Translations under genes and position numbers: made by a program
Part shown: in pieces, positions 15,092 to 26,028 of the stretch
How the letters are laid out: every line of letters starts with the position of its first letter
Position numbering within the stretch: the stretch's first letter is position 1
NCBI GenBank assembly: GCA_002069885.1
Contig: MWCD01000002.1
Location: forward strand, 62,001 to 126,000
Direction: 5' to 3'
Origin: a bacterium ADurb.Bin236
Lineage (GTDB): Bacteria; UBP15; UBA6099
Length of the DNA stretch: 64,000 nucleotides
The notes under the pieces: model-generated
Told to the model about the DNA's origin: nothing
The model's database searches: none
Seen by the model: only the letters and a program-made list of their open reading frames with translations

Positions 15092-15197
15092 TGACGGCAA
15101 AAGGAAAAGGAATGACGGCGGGGGGATTGATTATCGTTTGCGTAATGTCTGTTTGTGTTCAATAAACATTCGTTGTTTCCAATGTGAACTCTGAGCG

Positions 15198-15247
15198 AAA
15201 AACGGGGATTGGCAGCGCGCGCCTCAGCGATGCCTGTGCCTGCTTTT
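15198..15247 (+). repeat. REP-like hairpin element, copy 2
   Basis: The arms AAAAACGGGGATTGGCA and TGCCTGTGCCTGCTTTT enclose a loop rich in GCGC. The match to the copy at 24921-24970 continues past the right arm (CGCCGCTC). Confidence 0.75.
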
Positions 15248-15290
15248 CGCCGCTCCGCCGTTGTTTCTACTATGAACTCAGGCGCGAATT

Positions 15291-17333: not shown

Positions 17334-18582
17334 CGGTTCACCCCCACACGCGTGGGGAAGACCTCGTGGACTATTCAATCTTCATTTCTTCAAACGGTTC
17401 ACCCCCACACGCGTGGGGAAGACGCGCACGCAGCGCACGCCCCGCACGCCGTTACCGGTTCACCCCCACACGCGTGGGGAAGACGTGTAATTTCAGCAAT
17501 ACGTCGCGATAATATTCGGTTCACCCCCACACGCGTGGGGAAGACGGATAGCTTATCTTCGCAAAGCCATCTCCGAACGGTTCACCCCCACACGCGTGGG
17601 GAAGACGGATTTTCGGACGCCGAGTATCCACTCGCCGTCGGTTCACCCCCACACGCGTGGGGAAGACTCGACAAGGCTCTGTGATTCGACGCCGGACACC
17701 GGTTCACCCCCACACGCGTGGGGAAGACGAGGCTGGGCGAGCGGTGTCGGGCTGCGGAGGCGGTTCACCCCCACACGCGTGGGGAAGACGATCCGCTTAC
17801 CGTCAATCAAGTGCTGATCCACGGTTCACCCCCACACGCGTGGGGAAGACACAACGTCAAGGCCATGTGTGCAACGAATACACGGTTCACCCCCACACGC
17901 GTGGGGAAGACGAGATAACCCCACAACAACAAAACGCGCTAAACGGTTCACCCCCACACGCGTGGGGAAGACATGTCGGCTATTTTGTTCATAGCTATTG
18001 CTCCCGGTTCACCCCCACACGCGTGGGGAAGACGATTAAAATTATTGTCGCCGATCCCCCCGCGACGGTTCACCCCCACACGCGTGGGGAAGACTGAACT
18101 GACAACGGCGGGGGACTGGGATTACACGGTTCACCCCCACACGCGTGGGGAAGACAACGCCGCCCGTATGTCCCGGTCCCGAGACGCCGGTTCACCCCCA
18201 CACGCGTGGGGAAGACAAACGCCGTCAACGCCACGAGCGCACACGTTACGGTTCACCCCCACACGCGTGGGGAAGACGCCGTCCATGTCGGCTCTGCGCC
18301 GCCCGACCACGGTTCACCCCCACACGCGTGGGGAAGACCATATTACACAATCCAGAAAAGCGACGTAACGCGGTTCACCCCCACACGCGTGGGGAAGACG
18401 GCATGGTGTTGGATAGCGCACCCTGAAATATCGGTTCACCCCCACACGCGTGGGGAAGACCTCGCTGACAACGATCCCGCAGTCAATCTGCACGGTTCAC
18501 CCCCACACGCGTGGGGAAGACTTTTTGACTTTCTCTTCCGTCGGTTCCTCTTCCGGTTCACCCCCACACGCGTGGGGAAGAC
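17334..18582 (-). CRISPR. Type I-E CRISPR array, 21 repeats and 20 spacers
   Basis: A 29-bp repeat recurs with an exact 61-bp period from 17334 to 18554, giving 21 repeats and 20 spacers of 32 bp. By eye all repeats are identical, including the last one at 17334. Read on the minus strand, the repeat begins GTCTTCCCCAC, folds as CCCCAC/GTGGGG around GCGT and ends GTGAACCG. That end would be the 8-nt 5' handle left by Cas6e. The array lies directly downstream of cas2, with the leader end at 18583, so new spacers should be added at the high-coordinate side. I saw no spacer matching this window. Confidence 0.99.
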
Positions 18583-18605
18583 TCCCGCATATTGTATGCC
18601 GGTTT

Positions 18606-18634
18606 TTTTAAAACACTTTTAGTAGTATTGTCAA
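18606..18634 (-). promoter_or_regulatory. CRISPR leader and putative array promoter
   Basis: On the minus strand a perfect TTGACA (18629-18634) is followed after 16-17 bp by TTTAAA/TTAAAA (18606-18612). Transcription would begin about 15 nt before the first repeat. The AT-rich leader (18583-18635) is only 53 bp long because the cas2 stop is at 18636. Confidence 0.55.
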
Positions 18635-18635
18635 A

Positions 18636-18977
18636 TCAATCATATTGTGAAGACTCCTTATTTTTTTGATTGATCAAAGTCTCGTCAGTCCTTTCGATTT
18701 TGTATGGAGAAAGAACAAGGGCAAGTCCATCGACATCGATCATTGGCCGGGCCGGTTTCCCACAGGAGCGGTAAAGATATCCTTGCGGAGAGCGGGTGTC
18801 GCTCCATATCTGAGTGACGCCGCCGTCGCGTATTTTCTTGACGGCTTTGTTCCACAGAATATCTCTAATCCTCGCGCTCGGATTGCCAAGGTAGAGTCCC
18901 GGTCGCGGCTCTATCATCCAGCGTGACAAGTCTCCCCTCAAGCTCGCCGGGGATTTCTCCAATATCATCACCAGCAT
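18636..18977 (-). CDS. cas2: CRISPR adaptation protein Cas2 (type I-E)
   Basis: Cas2e dimers bridge Cas1 dimers in the spacer-integration complex. The 113-residue protein aligns with E. coli Cas2e from its first residues (MLVMILEKSPASLRG, then WMIEPRPGLYLGN and the IDVDGLAL block) and adds about 20 polar residues at the C-terminus. The start is fixed by GGAGG 6 nt upstream of the ATG. That start lies 113 nt inside the 3' end of cas1, in another frame, an unusually long overlap. The gene ends 53 bp before the array. Confidence 0.95.
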   Translation of the reverse strand: MLVMILEKSPASLRGDLSRWMIEPRPGLYLGNPSARIRDILWNKAVKKIRDGGVTQIWSDTRSPQGYLYRSCGKPARPMIDVDGLALVLSPYKIERTDETLINQKNKESSQYD

Positions 18978-19797
18978 CTAATACCTCCGCGATATCCGGC
19001 AAGACGCGTTTCATCAGCTTTGTTTTATGAAAAACGTCCCGACAAGCCAATCTTACATTGCGCTCGACATCGACATCGCTTTCAGAGCAAGTTTGAAACG
19101 CGAGCGGAACTGCTATTTCCATCTTGTACAGGTCGGCGACGTCATAGACGAAGGAAAGCATCTTGCCGGTATGAATGAATCCGATGGCAGGAGAATATCC
19201 CGCCGAAAGTATTGCAGCGTGGCACAAGCCGTAAAGGCAGGCGAAAGCGGATGAGAGCGCCCGGTTGAGCGGGTCGGCCTGATCCCAGTTCTGCGGATTG
19301 TATATTCTGCCGCGCCACATCACGCCGTTCTCTTCCGCGAGCTTGCGGTATGCCTCCCTGACTCTGTGCCCTTCCATTCCTCTTACGGTGTCGAGAGAAA
19401 CGGAGTCGGGAAGTTTTTCCGGAAAGCGCATGTTGTACATCCGGCGAATGACGGCGGTGCGCGAATCCATGTTGACGTAAAGCCCCGCTTGTCGAAGCAA
19501 GCGTCTTGAGGAGTGAGAGCCTCCCGTGCTGTGCGCGTAAAGACGGACGCCTTGTTCGCCTGTCCAGCACACAAGCGTGTTGTTGTCGGCAAGAAAACGC
19601 ATTGCCGATTGAGTGACGGTCGTGCCGGGGCCTAGCAAAAGCAGTCCTAGCTGGTTAATCGGAATCTCGATAGACCCGTCGGTCCCGTGAAATAGCAAGG
19701 CTCCGGCCTTTTCGTCCAGCCTTCCGTGTTCGAGGAAAAGATGGCTCCATCTATCCTCGAATTTCGGCAGTTCACGCAAGTCCCTCATGGCGGTCAT
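18865..19797 (-). CDS. cas1: CRISPR integrase Cas1 (type I-E)
   Basis: Cas1e catalyses spacer integration. The 310-residue length is normal. Metal-site residues match E. coli: E142 (GMEGHRV), H209 (IGFIHTG) and the aspartates of FVYDVAD (219/222). RLACRDVFHKTKLMKRVLPDI is the conserved C-terminal helix. The ATG overlaps the cas6e stop by 4 bp. The last ~38 codons overlap cas2; this tail (RLVTLDDRAATGTLPWQSERED) is poorly conserved in the family and may be shaped by the cas2 frame. Confidence 0.97.
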   Translation of the reverse strand: MTAMRDLRELPKFEDRWSHLFLEHGRLDEKAGALLFHGTDGSIEIPINQLGLLLLGPGTTVTQSAMRFLADNNTLVCWTGEQGVRLYAHSTGGSHSSRRLLRQAGLYVNMDSRTAVIRRMYNMRFPEKLPDSVSLDTVRGMEGHRVREAYRKLAEENGVMWRGRIYNPQNWDQADPLNRALSSAFACLYGLCHAAILSAGYSPAIGFIHTGKMLSFVYDVADLYKMEIAVPLAFQTCSESDVDVERNVRLACRDVFHKTKLMKRVLPDIAEVLDAGDDIGEIPGELEGRLVTLDDRAATGTLPWQSERED

Positions 19798-20536: not shown

Positions 20537-21646
20537 TTATTCCACCTCCTCTGCGCTCAGGCGTCTCCGTCGGGTTTCGAGAGACCGGTATCGGACTATT
20601 TCTTCTCGTTTCTTGATAATTTCATCGCGCCATTGAGGGTGTTCGGGGTTTATCCGGTCAAGCCCCATTCCGTGTCCGTACTCTATCATGGTGACTGCGT
20701 CGTGACAGAGACGGCAAAGAGAGCGCAAATCTTCTTGAGGTTCATTGCCGCCCGCGCGGCGATATGTCACATGCTGAACTGTTGTCGCGGGAGATTTGCA
20801 GAAAACGCAAAGTCCGTGGTCGGAGTTCAGCCGCTCGGCCCGCGCGTTCTTGTATGCGGTGTTTGAGTAGTCCGCGCGGGAACGTGGCGGATCGGGAACT
20901 CTGCTTTGCGCCGCGTCTTCCGCTATCCTGACATCTCCTTCTGTTCCAACTGAGAGGTTTTTCAGCATCACAAACCGAGGCTGATGGGATGGCGGCTCGA
21001 ACAGTATGGGGACATCGTGCCACACTAACGCGTCATCCGGCGCTTCCGGCTGTTCTTGCGTGGGCGTCCAGTCAATCAGGCAGTCGATTGACTGCGGCGC
21101 TTCATCTTCCTTGTTCCTTCTGCGCCAAGGAACAGATGACAACGCCGAGATCAGATCAGGATGCGATTCCGGAGGGCGCTCGCTCAATGGCCGCGAGGGA
21201 ACGCAGTTCTTCCTTCCCAGATAGAGCGTCCATTTCGGATTTTTAACGGCGGTTTCGATCTGGTCGATCACTGCTGAATCTCCCTGCAAAGCGACTAAAA
21301 AAGAAGCGTCGCAAAGATATTCTCGACGCGTGAGCAGCGCGCCTTTCTTTGTCTTGCCCTCGGCTTCCGCAATGCTCATCTGCATTTCTGCGCCCACAGT
21401 GTGGTAGTCCCACCAGCGGATTCCGGCCCTGTCAATTCTGACGCCCATAAGCAATGAGCGAAGCTTCGGCAGCCAGAATGAGGATGCTTCTGCTCGCGGA
21501 ACGCCAAGCGCGGCGCAAATAATCCCGGAAACGCCGGACTTCGTGGGGGCTTCGCAGGTTCTGCGGACGACAAACTTGGACTCATGTCCGCCCCACGCTT
21601 GCAATGGCCCTTCTAGACGGAGAAACATCGTGTTTTCGCCCATCAC
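20537..21646 (-). CDS. cas5e: Cas5e-HNH fusion subunit of a Cas3-less type I-E Cascade
   Basis: This gene encodes 369 residues; ordinary Cas5e has roughly 225-250. Residues 1 to ~250 are Cas5e: MFLRLEGPLQAWGG near the start, CEAPTKSGVSGIICAALG, then TRREYLCDASFLVAL and YLGRKNCVPSRPL. After a polar linker, residues ~262-345 form an HNH nuclease. It has zinc-type C280-x2-C283 and C311-x2-C314, and the catalytic set H292 (QHVTY), N301 (GGNEP) and H315 (CRLCHD). There is no internal stop, and no ribosome site before the internal ATG at residue 227. No cas3 lies in the operon or anywhere in the window. Related Cas5-HNH and Cas8-HNH effectors without Cas3 were reported in 2023. I infer that this subunit supplies target DNA cleavage. 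The start overlaps the cas7e stop (ATGA). Confidence 0.93.
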   Translation of the reverse strand: MMGENTMFLRLEGPLQAWGGHESKFVVRRTCEAPTKSGVSGIICAALGVPRAEASSFWLPKLRSLLMGVRIDRAGIRWWDYHTVGAEMQMSIAEAEGKTKKGALLTRREYLCDASFLVALQGDSAVIDQIETAVKNPKWTLYLGRKNCVPSRPLSERPPESHPDLISALSSVPWRRRNKEDEAPQSIDCLIDWTPTQEQPEAPDDALVWHDVPILFEPPSHQPRFVMLKNLSVGTEGDVRIAEDAAQSRVPDPPRSRADYSNTAYKNARAERLNSDHGLCVFCKSPATTVQHVTYRRAGGNEPQEDLRSLCRLCHDAVTMIEYGHGMGLDRINPEHPQWRDEIIKKREEIVRYRSLETRRRRLSAEEVE

Positions 21647-22767
21647 GCCACCTCTGAACTTAACGCGACTTCCTTAACTTTGTTCCAGTCGTAACCGATG
21701 GCGGCGACGATGGCGGGAATTAATTCATCAATCGATTTTAGATTGTTCTCCGCAAGTTCGTTTTCCTTGTTGTCTTCTATAACGCTCAACGGATATCTAA
21801 GGTTGGGTGAGAACCAGAACCTATTGTCGGGTTTGCCGTAACCAGTGTCCAGATCGAGGATGTATTGTCCGAGTTGAGCGACGCTCTGAGAAACGATGTC
21901 GCGCCCTCCGCCGATAGAGACCGGCCTTGCGAATGCATTGGCATAACTAACGGGCGATTTTTTGAGTTCAATCAAAATGCCGTCCGGAGGATTATGCGCG
22001 GCGAAGCTGTTTTGTTTTCCTGTGGGATTGACTGTCGCCGCGGCGCGGATGAAAGCTCCTACGGTGTGTGCGGCGAGTTCTTTGTTGCCTTTTAAGTTTT
22101 TTACTAAATCCTCAAAATCAATTGAGAAATATTTGTAGAAGCATGCGGACGAGAACAAAGCTTCATCAACATACCCGGCGCCCGTGTCGGCTCCCGGAAT
22201 GTCGTCTGCGGCAACGTAATAATCAACTTCCGGGCGGGCTTCGTGCGTTGATATGGCGTGAGCGACTTGAAGCGCGGCCTCGACTGTTGTGTCTTTAAGA
22301 ACACCGGTTTCAAGCATTCTTCCATTCAAGGCCATGTCGGGAACAGCGGTCAATTCAGAAATCAGCCCCCCGAATTCCGATGCAAGCTCATTGTCGGACT
22401 TGCCGGAACTGTTTTCCAGCAGGTCTGCCATTTTCGAGATCGCTTCTTTTGTGGTGTAGACCAACATATCGCTTTTCTCTTCGTCTTTAGGAGCGATGCC
22501 GCACTTTTTGAGTATTGCGACAGCTCTCTTTTTTGCGTCTGCCTTGCCTTGGATTCTTTCTGAAATCAGTTTTGCCAACTGTCTTGTGCGGACGCCGCCG
22601 CATAGAGATTTGAACTCCTCGCTCATCCTTATGCTTCGTTTGACGCATTGGCTGGAAATGCGCGAGCGGATGACTCCGCCGAAATAGCAAGTTTTCGGCG
22701 CGCCAAGGTCGTCTCTGTTCAAGTTGGCCGGACTGTGGTTCTGTATCATGTGGATTTCGATTAGCAT
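21643..22767 (-). CDS. cas7e: Cascade backbone protein Cas7e
   Basis: Cas7e forms the helical filament that coats the crRNA in Cascade. The 374-residue protein opens with the family block MIQNHSPANLNRDDLGAPKTCYFGG, then RSRISSQCVKRSIR. Later landmarks are EARPEVDYYVAADD and the conserved ATVNPTGKQNSFAAHNPPDGILIEL region. The length is close to E. coli Cas7e (363). It starts 1 bp after the cse2 stop and overlaps cas5e by 4 bp. Nothing in it looks degraded. Confidence 0.97.
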   Translation of the reverse strand: MLIEIHMIQNHSPANLNRDDLGAPKTCYFGGVIRSRISSQCVKRSIRMSEEFKSLCGGVRTRQLAKLISERIQGKADAKKRAVAILKKCGIAPKDEEKSDMLVYTTKEAISKMADLLENSSGKSDNELASEFGGLISELTAVPDMALNGRMLETGVLKDTTVEAALQVAHAISTHEARPEVDYYVAADDIPGADTGAGYVDEALFSSACFYKYFSIDFEDLVKNLKGNKELAAHTVGAFIRAAATVNPTGKQNSFAAHNPPDGILIELKKSPVSYANAFARPVSIGGGRDIVSQSVAQLGQYILDLDTGYGKPDNRFWFSPNLRYPLSVIEDNKENELAENNLKSIDELIPAIVAAIGYDWNKVKEVALSSEVA

Positions 22768-22768
22768 G

Positions 22769-23266
22769 TTATTCTCCTTTTCGGTTTAGAAATTCTTCCG
22801 CCCATCTTAGGCGGGTTGACTCGCGTTCCCAGATGGAAAGATCGTCGGTCAGCTTAACCCAATCGAGATTGAGTTTTTTTGACTCGATTCTGTCTAAAGC
22901 CCATTGTAAACTCGGCTCAATGTCGCTAAGGGATGCAAGAAGCAGGTTGTCGAAAATCAGCCGCAGGCGGTTTGACTCGTCGGAAGTCTGATTGCGAGGC
23001 ATAGAACTACCAAGTTGAGACGCGAGAGTCTTTCCTTGTTCGTTGGAAACGGCGGGACGAAAAGCGTAGAGTTTCGCTATCAGCCACGCCACTTCGCGAC
23101 GCGGCGCGCGTTGACTCCGTTGTCTTAACGGCCACCATATTCCTGTGAACAAATCAAATGCGGGGACGGACTCGTCAAGTTTTTGTCCTGAGTGAGCGCG
23201 CAACAGGCTTAACTCGCCGGATTTAAGGTTCGTCAGCGTGTCGATAAAGCGCTTCGTTTCACTCAT
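22769..23266 (-). CDS. cse2: Cascade small subunit Cse2 (Cas11e)
   Basis: Cse2 dimers line the belly of Cascade and stabilise the R-loop. The 165-residue, helix-rich protein has the usual pattern: LKSGELSLLRA near the start, REVAWLIAKLYAF in the middle, and LRLIFDNLLLASLSDIEPSLQWAL, then a C-terminal LRWAEEFL. It overlaps the end of cas8e by 8 bp and precedes cas7e by 1 bp. Family sequence conservation is low, so gene position contributes much to the call. Confidence 0.92.
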   Translation of the reverse strand: MSETKRFIDTLTNLKSGELSLLRAHSGQKLDESVPAFDLFTGIWWPLRQRSQRAPRREVAWLIAKLYAFRPAVSNEQGKTLASQLGSSMPRNQTSDESNRLRLIFDNLLLASLSDIEPSLQWALDRIESKKLNLDWVKLTDDLSIWERESTRLRWAEEFLNRKGE

Positions 23267-24656
23267 CCTTTTTTCCTCCTTTCTTCACTCGGGTTTTCCC
23301 GGTTGATTTTTTTTCGCGCATGTCCGGGGCGACGCTGGATATCTTTCTGCGTCTTTCGAGAGCCGAAGAAGTAAACCCCGGGGATAAAGCTCCGGCAACC
23401 GCGCTCATTAATGGTCGGTACTCGCGCGAGGCGTCGTCCCATGCGGCAGGTTCGCCGGTTAGCAATTCGTCAAGTCGTGACGAAACCACATGCTCAACAT
23501 GAGGACGTATGGTTGCGGCCATTGCTGATTTTTCTTTATCAGATCTCGAACCGATCCGCTGTTTTTCTATCAGCCAACTTTCTTTTTTCCATAATTCGAT
23601 AAGCGTGGCCGCCGTATCTGTGCTTGCAGGTTTTGACGGTATTCTTATCGTTCGTTCCCAGACATCTATATTTTTCGCTTTGTCTGTGGAGAAACCTATC
23701 ACGAGAATCATATTGTCCGTATTTGCGCCAATGAATCTGTTTGATTGGGATATTCGAGATGCCGTTTCCGGCCACTGTCTATCCATTCTGAATCTCCCAG
23801 TTGATGTGGGATCCGGCGCTTTTAATGATTTGCGAGGTTCTTTGTCTGTGTACAAAACATGAGGATCATTCCATAATTCATTTCGAAGTTCTCCGGCGCT
23901 CTGGAATTCACATGTTGTTATCAAAAAGTCCCGTTTGCCACATCCTATACAGTCTGACATTTCATCATCGGGATTGTGCAGAAAGACCTTTCTTGATAAG
24001 GTCGTCAATCCGTCAAGCAAAGGCGCGCATGAGCTAGAAATTTTGGTAATCGACGGCGCGACCCATGAGGGATTGCCTATACTATCAACATGCATCCAAT
24101 TTGAAACGAGGGTTTCCTTAAGATTAGGCCCGATGGCAAATATATATATTGGCGGAGTCCCGTTAATGCCTGCTTTTAGGTCGGGCAGACCGGACACGGA
24201 AAACAGAGGGAGCCTCAAAAGCCCCATTGCACAACATGCCTTGCACAATCCGTTGATATTATCTGTCGAATGACGGAAATGTCGAAAATTGTTGCCGGTA
24301 GGTATTTCTTGGAGCAATTCCGTTGTTGATTTCTTCCTATTCGCTGATTGATTTTGAAAAAATCTTTTTCCTTCTCCAAGAAGATTGAAACAGTCTTTTT
24401 CCGCTTCAAGTTTTTCAAACCATTCGGCAGGAAATGAATCTCCTTTCAATTCTGTTTCATCTCCTGTCGGATTGCCTTTGCACCAATAAAGCACGGCCAG
24501 CAAAAATCTCATGATGGCGAAACGGTCCATAGGGTTGCTCGCGGCTATCTGACGTATGCTTCCTGCTCGCGTGAGCGCTTCCTTAATCCCGATGGCGCTT
24601 ACTTGTCCGTTGTTCCATAGAACGGGAATCCATTTCTCATCTACTAAATTAAACAT
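23259..24656 (-). CDS. cas8e: Cascade large subunit Cas8e (Cse1)
   Basis: Cas8e reads the PAM and, in ordinary type I-E, recruits Cas3. The 465-residue protein starts MFNLVDEKWIPV, as Cse1 proteins do; AGGAGG lies 8 nt upstream, so an extra 22 codons to 24722 are excluded. A zinc-type cluster is visible (CKACCAMGLLRLP, and CIGCGKRD plus a later TTCEF). It is the first gene of the cas operon behind a clear promoter. With no cas3 here and a nuclease in Cas5, the Cas3-docking face may be altered; this cannot be judged by eye. E. coli Cse1 is slightly longer (502). Confidence 0.93.
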   Translation of the reverse strand: MFNLVDEKWIPVLWNNGQVSAIGIKEALTRAGSIRQIAASNPMDRFAIMRFLLAVLYWCKGNPTGDETELKGDSFPAEWFEKLEAEKDCFNLLGEGKRFFQNQSANRKKSTTELLQEIPTGNNFRHFRHSTDNINGLCKACCAMGLLRLPLFSVSGLPDLKAGINGTPPIYIFAIGPNLKETLVSNWMHVDSIGNPSWVAPSITKISSSCAPLLDGLTTLSRKVFLHNPDDEMSDCIGCGKRDFLITTCEFQSAGELRNELWNDPHVLYTDKEPRKSLKAPDPTSTGRFRMDRQWPETASRISQSNRFIGANTDNMILVIGFSTDKAKNIDVWERTIRIPSKPASTDTAATLIELWKKESWLIEKQRIGSRSDKEKSAMAATIRPHVEHVVSSRLDELLTGEPAAWDDASREYRPLMSAVAGALSPGFTSSALERRRKISSVAPDMREKKSTGKTRVKKGGKKDE

Positions 24657-24690: not shown

Positions 24691-24722
24691 ATTATATCAG
24701 ATACATAGTCCCTTTTTGTCAA
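24691..24722 (-). promoter_or_regulatory. Putative promoter of the cas operon
   Basis: On the minus strand TGATATAAT (a perfect extended -10; hexamer at 24691-24696) lies 34 bp before the cas8e start. A perfect TTGACA is at 24717-24722, but the spacer is 20 bp, longer than ideal. The TG extension may compensate. Confidence 0.55.
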
Positions 24723-25128
24723 TCAATTAGAATGCGACAACCTTGTCATGCATTCTACTCGATGCCTGTGACATTATTGCGCGTCAAATTGCCATCTTTA
24801 AAAATATTTAATCGGACAGCAGAAAGGAATGTCGGCGGGGGGTGGGATTGTTTTTGTCGTAATTGTTCTGACCAGCGAGCGAAGGCGGGCAATATTCCAC
24901 CCGGCAAATATTTATATGAGAAAAATGGGGACTGGCAGCGCGCGCCCCAGCGATGCCTGTGCCCGCTTTTCGCCGCTCTGGGAATGAAAGGCAAATTCGG
25001 CGACTATGAAGCAATGCCAAGTATGGTCGGGCGAGAGTTTGTTTGGAAAAATGTCTCACCGCAAACTCTGGAATATTCATTTAAAAATCAATAAAGAAGT
25101 TATATGATCGCAATTTACGCTGGGCGAA
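24723..25128. other. Gene-free region upstream of the cas operon
   Basis: No cas3 or any credible gene is present between cas8e and the PhnD-like gene. The only structure is REP-like copy 3 at 24921-24970. Confidence 0.7.
24921..24970 (+). repeat. REP-like hairpin element, copy 3
   Basis: The arms AAAAATGGGGACTGGCA and TGCCTGTGCCCGCTTTT pair with mismatches around a GC-rich loop. This is the best-paired of the three copies. Confidence 0.75.
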
Positions 25129-26028
25129 CTATTTTTTAGCTGCGGCGAGCCATTTATTGTAGTCTTTGTCCCAACCGCTTTTGGCGGCGTCGGTGTATAG
25201 CTTAATGAGCGGGTCGAAGTCTTTTATGGTAACGGGGAAAAAGCGTATTTTCGTTGTTTTCATAAGGCTTCTGTAAGGCTTCAGGGTTTCGGACGTATGG
25301 GCGCTTTCCATCACGCTGGACAGCCTGTTGACGAGCAGCGTGGGAGCGTTCTTGTGTTTCATTATGCCCGGCTGGACGGTCGCCTCAGAGCACACAAGTT
25401 CGGTCAGCTTGCTGGTCATGGCGGGGTTAAACAGCTTGAGGGAGAACACGTTCATCTCGTGCACAAGGGCGAGGTCGACCTCTTTTTTCGCCAGCATGTC
25501 GAGCGAGGCCATGCCGTTGCTGTTCATCTTCACTTCCTTGAAAAGGCCGTCGAAAATCTTGTCGCCGAACATTTTGCGAAGAGGATAGTAGCCGTCGTGT
25601 TCCTTGTAGGTGGCTAGACGCAGGTCTTTCAGCTTGTCGATGCCGGTGATTTTTGTGTCCGAGCTTGAGTAGAGGCACATCCGGGCGGTTTTCTTGTCGA
25701 AAAGCGAAACGCCAAGTATCGGCTCGTATCCGAGCTTGGTGACCAGAAGAAAAAATGGATCGGTGTTTTTTGTGAACGCGAAATCGAGGGCGCCTTTCGC
25801 CGCGTCGTCCGTGAAAGCTTTTTCGTCGTCGTACCACTTGAGTTTCATATCGACTTTCTCAATGTCGGCGACGTATTTAACCACCGCGCCGAGAACGGTT
25901 TTAAGCTGCTGGTCCCGCTCGTCCGGCCCCATGTAAACGCCGAAGTTGTATGTTTCCGCCGCAAAGGTCGCGACCGTTGACACCGCTATCATCGCCGCCG
26001 CTATCGTCGCCGCCGCAATTTTTTTCAT
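25129..26028 (-). CDS. PhnD/SsuA-like periplasmic substrate-binding protein
   Basis: A signal peptide (cleavage near TFAAET) leads a ~275-residue two-lobed binding protein. Segments typical of PhnD-type proteins include a VVKYVADIEKVDMKLKWYDD region, GALDFAFTKNTDPFF, and LVHEMNVFS in the second lobe. The usual role is to deliver phosphonate, phosphite or another oxyanion to an ABC transporter, or to sense ligands. No permease or ATPase gene is beside it, so it may be an orphan receptor. GGAG lies about 10 nt before the ATG. Confidence 0.8.
   Translation of the reverse strand: MKKIAAATIAAAMIAVSTVATFAAETYNFGVYMGPDERDQQLKTVLGAVVKYVADIEKVDMKLKWYDDEKAFTDDAAKGALDFAFTKNTDPFFLLVTKLGYEPILGVSLFDKKTARMCLYSSSDTKITGIDKLKDLRLATYKEHDGYYPLRKMFGDKIFDGLFKEVKMNSNGMASLDMLAKKEVDLALVHEMNVFSLKLFNPAMTSKLTELVCSEATVQPGIMKHKNAPTLLVNRLSSVMESAHTSETLKPYRSLMKTTKIRFFPVTIKDFDPLIKLYTDAAKSGWDKDYNKWLAAAKK

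Follow-up and report, generated by a model that had tools for sequence, protein, structure and literature searches.

An intact I-E2 (Cas5-HNH) CRISPR-Cas locus in bacterium ADurb.Bin236

Introduction

A variant of the type I-E CRISPR-Cas system, in which the Cas5 subunit of Cascade carries an HNH nuclease domain, was described and tested in 2023 (PMC10910872). For the Cas5-HNH system of Candidatus Cloacimonetes, crRNA-guided, PAM-dependent and HNH-dependent cutting of double-stranded DNA was shown without Cas3 (PMC10910872). The structure of the Cas5-HNH Cascade was solved in 2024, as summarised in PMC11822464, and the variant was named I-E2 in the 2025 classification (PMC12669027).

Two other class 1 effectors are comparable. 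The type I-F Cas8-HNH system of Selenomonas (I-F4) likewise uses a Cascade-built HNH in place of Cas3, but there the domain belongs to Cas8f and not Cas5, the backbone is of type I-F and the middle residue of the catalytic triad is asparagine. In the type IV-A DinG-HNH system (IV-A2) an HNH with an H-D-H triad is also found, although it resides on a helicase, cuts processively and belongs to an unrelated backbone.

The locus described here lies in a window of 64,000 nucleotides (contig MWCD01000002.1, positions 62,001 to 126,000, assembly GCA_002069885.1). An earlier note, made from the letters of the window alone, proposed a type I-E Cascade that cuts DNA itself through an HNH on Cas5 and assigned it to the class known since 2023 (PMC10910872), of which it is indeed a further example. 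With the Candidatus Cloacimonetes I-E2 system (PDB 8yb6, 8yha, 8zlu, 8zp7, 9jxs) the locus shares the same C-terminal HNH on Cas5e (55% identity across the entire protein), the same Cascade genes, the lack of cas3 in the operon, 32-nt spacers and the H-D-H triad. It differs in its host, which belongs to another, little-sampled lineage, and in a genome that also encodes a type I-C system and, elsewhere, a type I-E cas3 with a partial cas8e. With canonical type I-E it has in common the Cascade subunits, cas1e, cas2e and the repeat type; however, in canonical loci cas3 adjoins cas8e and Cas5e (about 215-268 aa) has no HNH, whereas here the operon has no cas3.

Organisation of the locus

The operon occupies 17.3-24.7 kb of the window on the minus strand and runs in the order cas8e, cse2, cas7e, cas5e-HNH, cas6e, cas1e, cas2e, followed by a CRISPR array. 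Its features are as follows.

23259..24656, minus strand: cas8e (Cse1), 465 aa from the ATG at 24656; TIGR02547, E 1.8e-20, and PF09481, E 8e-41
22769..23266, minus strand: cse2 (cas11e), 165 aa; TIGR02548, E 6e-13
21643..22767, minus strand: cas7e, 374 aa; TIGR01869, E 1.9e-77
20537..21646, minus strand: cas5e-HNH fusion, 369 aa; TIGR01868, E 4.6e-46, and PDB 8yb6, E 4e-129, full length
20612..20881, minus strand: HNH domain of Cas5, residues 256-345; conservation in 49 relatives, and PF01844
19794..20531, minus strand: cas6e (Cse3), 245 aa; TIGR01907, E 6e-26
18865..19797, minus strand: cas1e, 310 aa; TIGR03638, E 4e-109
18636..18977, minus strand: cas2e, 113 aa; TIGR01873, E 4.2e-16
18583..18635, minus strand: short A+T-rich segment that separates cas2e from the first repeat, a probable leader by its position
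17334..18582, minus strand: CRISPR array, 21 repeats and 20 spacers

All seven cas genes are intact, and profile searches of the window place cas8e, cse2, cas7e, cas5e and cas6e in a single operon. The presence of the other Cascade genes and of both adaptation genes, which the earlier note had claimed, was thereby borne out by profile for cas8e, cse2, cas7e, cas6e, cas1e and cas2e. A TTG at 24722 offers an alternative start for the cas8e frame. The last 113 nt of cas1e (18865-18977) also encode, in another frame, the start of cas2e, and a similar overlap occurs in the nearest relative (L013) and in several, though not all, of the other I-E2 loci.

The array, the only one of its kind in the assembly, consists of 21 identical copies of a 29-nt repeat, GTCTTCCCCACGCGTGTGGGGGTGAACCG, and all 20 spacers are 32 nt long, giving a period of 61. 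Four spacers were compared with IMG/VR and gave no protospacer match, hence no PAM.

Upstream of cas8e, the neighbouring gene encodes a phosphonate-type substrate-binding protein (25129-26028); the gap between them holds no gene, as the earlier note had read it, and a search of the window for cas3 found none. A dispersed repeat flanks the CRISPR locus on both sides (15197-15255 and 24920-24978, 93% identical), and about 20 copies of its core occur across the genome; it is possibly a small mobile or repetitive element.

The Cas5-HNH fusion protein

The cas5e-HNH frame (20537-21646, minus strand) is intact over 369 codons; translation more probably begins at the ATG at 21643, which overlaps the stop codon of cas7e, and this gives 368 aa. 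The canonical Cas5e proteins fetched for comparison are 215-268 aa long, in agreement with the earlier estimate that this one exceeds the usual length by about 120 residues. Residues 6-213 match the Cas5e profile TIGR01868 (E 4.6e-46), and residues 280-318 match the HNH profile PF01844 with an E-value of 6e-4 and 20.3 bits, just missing the cut-off of 21.4 bits. In a phmmer search of PDB sequences the first match is the Cas5-HNH subunit of the Candidatus Cloacimonetes Cascade (8yb6, E 4e-129, full length, 55% identity over 359 residues), with canonical Cas5e chains ranking behind it at 1e-18 to 1e-27. Homology of this kind, extending over the whole length of Cas5-HNH chains of known structure, leaves no doubt about the fusion.

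An AlphaFold2 model, built from 21 relatives, has a mean pLDDT of 76. Its top Foldseek matches are Cas5-HNH Cascade structures, with a whole-chain TM-score of about 0.56, from which nothing beyond the Foldseek ranking was taken as evidence. The low score probably arises because the model positions the two domains poorly with respect to each other, and the structural match therefore adds little to the sequence.

Distribution of I-E2 loci

A scan of a genome collection recovered 48 additional Cas5-HNH loci, all full-length (L013-L060), together with a single related Cas5e without HNH (L061), and IMG/VR yielded one more HNH locus (L062), its sole I-E2 match. Judged by record titles, the hosts of the 48 genomes span about 14 phyla, including Planctomycetota, Armatimonadota, Chloroflexota, Nitrospirota, Nitrospinota, Myxococcota, Thermodesulfobacteriota, Acidobacteriota, Hydrogenedentota, Sumerlaeota, Kapabacteria, Cloacimonadota, Bacillota and Pseudomonadota. 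The gene order is common to these loci where the contig permits, and most of those with sufficient flank have an array with a period of about 61 nt and a nearly identical repeat.

No convincing cas3 was found in any of the 49 HNH loci, 33 of which extend 3 kb or more upstream of cas8e and have unrelated genes in that region; the HNH-less relative does have cas3. One weak Cas3-like match of 48 codons (L028:178-321, E 5e-4) was inspected and not counted. At the level of whole genomes, half of the hosts (24 of 48) have no match to the Cas3 HD domain at E 0.001, and a strong one (below E 1e-20) is present in only four. These genomes are mostly incomplete MAGs, so that absence from any single one is weak, although the pattern is clear. 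Since no convincing cas3 is present in the loci and half of the genomes show no Cas3 HD domain, the HNH very probably replaces Cas3 in I-E2.

The Cas5-HNH tree that the earlier note had called for was built, and the rows nearest to the window outside its genus belong to other phyla. Within the genus, two of four genomes carry I-E2. Taken together, these two observations point to horizontal spread. The tree is no proof of a single origin of the HNH fusion, its HNH-less rows being very long branches; L061 is placed among the HNH-bearing rows, with a branch length of 4.9.

The IMG/VR locus (IMGVR_UViG_3300005916_000376, L062:1-8259) contains an I-E2 operon, truncated by the end of the contig, with cas8e through cas6e. 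The operon begins roughly 0.5 kb away from a phage portal gene in divergent orientation (phrog_21, E 1.6e-68; PF05136). Possible explanations are the edge of a prophage, an I-E2 system carried by a virus, or a contig that is chimeric.

Active site of the HNH domain

The zinc cysteines C280, C283, C311 and C314 and the histidines H292 and H315, which the earlier note had named correctly, are invariant in all 49 HNH-bearing relatives, as are D276, D316, T319, M320, E322, Y323, G324, R331, P334 and R340. The asparagine that it had placed at N301 has to be replaced: asparagine occupies position 301 in 18 relatives and aspartate in 16, and 8yb6 has lysine there, so this variable position is not catalytic. 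Position 306 is acidic in 48 of the 49 (D in 37, E in 11, A in one), and the predicted triad is H292, D306 and H315. D306 lies 14 residues after H292 and nine before H315, exactly the spacing of the proven His304/Asn318/His327 triad of the Selenomonas I-F Cas8-HNH (PMC11459484). The identical H-D-H triad is present in 8yb6, and in the PDB variant 9jxs the residue that aligns with H315 is changed from His to Ala.

An aspartate in the middle of the triad, where asparagine is usual, would suit an HNH that is a degenerate passenger on a Cas3-less Cascade which merely binds, and so silences, its targets. The evidence argues strongly against this explanation, which is regarded as extremely improbable: the metal-binding positions and both histidines are invariant and the middle position is nearly always acidic, the 8yb6 system cuts with the same H-D-H residues, and DinG-HNH is active with H497/D514/H523, so that H-D-H is a working triad (PMC10910872). 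Moreover, comparison of the window with its nearest relative gives a dN/dS of 0.06 for the HNH part and 0.10 for the Cas5 part, ratios that are rough at the high dS of 1.4-1.5. On this comparison the HNH is under purifying selection, being kept and constrained at least as much as the Cas5 part.

cas3 genes elsewhere in the genome

The assembly, which totals 3.87 Mb in 169 contigs with a completeness of 92.6%, encodes two Cas3 proteins, both on contigs other than that of the window and neither with the I-E2 operon. Thus, the absence of cas3 reported earlier stands for the locus but not for the genome, and the occurrence elsewhere of a cas3 co-expressed with the locus, named in advance as an observation that would count against a self-cutting effector, is matched only nominally: both genes belong to other CRISPR operons, and 24 of the 48 other I-E2 host genomes show no Cas3 HD domain.

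One of them (contig C77) is part of a type I-C operon with cas3, cas5c, cas8c, cas7c, cas4, cas1, cas2 and an array, in which cas3 and cas8c were identified by profile and the remaining genes were read from ORFs. This locus (C77:418-12317, L004) thus includes a dedicated cas3, and its long array has a period of about 67 nt.

The other (C59:14530-18230, L003) is a type I-E cas3 of 874 aa; the cas8e that comes after it is incomplete because the contig ends there. A search of the assembly for a second cas7e or cas5e found none, so the remainder of this operon is missing or lost. Three relatives from the genus share a chromosomal neighbour gene of C59 at 94-97% identity, which makes bin contamination an unlikely source; the contig is probably genuinely of the genus. 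The same contig carries three tandem flagellin-like genes (C59:9259-12166, L003; 275-276 aa), with matched 300-nt blocks 81-94% identical between the copies.

A type I-E Cas3 in the same genome might serve the window's Cascade in trans, leaving an ordinary type I-E system with the HNH tail as an accessory. We consider this highly improbable. The C59 cas3 precedes a cas8e of its own, which gives no BLASTP alignment with the window Cas8e at E<1 and has a different best PADLOC model. Three genus relatives show only weak matches to this Cas3, among them one that carries Cas5-HNH (G019). The 24 I-E2 genomes with no Cas3 HD match, and cleavage by the Cloacimonetes homologue without Cas3 (PMC10910872), also speak against dependence on a Cas3 in trans. 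It is likewise very doubtful that the HNH-Cascade and the Cas3-bearing operon of C59 cooperate in a two-nuclease type I-E response, in which the HNH would make a defined cut and the trans Cas3 would degrade the target or fuel primed spacer acquisition.

Proposed function

Judged from its sequence, the locus displays every testable feature of I-E2, and it is very likely an intact I-E2 (Cas5-HNH) system acting as an HNH-Cascade, for which assembly, cleavage and cut position are expected by analogy with the Cloacimonetes homologue. The proposal that such an effector would cut DNA itself is supported by 55% full-length identity to a homologue with proven cleavage, the same operon set, the retention of metal-binding and catalytic positions under purifying selection, and the Cas3-less loci of 48 other hosts. 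The array transcript would be processed by Cas6e into crRNAs with 32-nt spacers; a crRNA would assemble with Cas8e, Cse2, Cas7e, Cas5-HNH and Cas6e into Cascade; and the Cas5 HNH would make a programmed double-strand cut near the PAM-distal end, without Cas3; going by the Cloacimonetes system, the cuts would fall 3-8 bp past that end and leave 3' overhangs. New spacers would be added by Cas1e and Cas2e.

Conclusions

The locus is a good, clean instance, in an obscure and poorly sampled lineage, of a known class that is rare and only recently described, and it introduces no new principle. HNH-Cascades make one defined double-strand cut, as opposed to long-range shredding, and genome editing with them has been demonstrated. 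A further intact I-E2 member with adaptation genes and a uniform array adds to their natural diversity, and this locus also offers a corrected active site (D306) and a genome context with other cas3 genes. The comparison shows I-E2 thinly spread over many phyla, often in genomes without detectable Cas3. Primed adaptation normally depends on Cas3; how it proceeds in the absence of Cas3 therefore becomes a question that can be asked.
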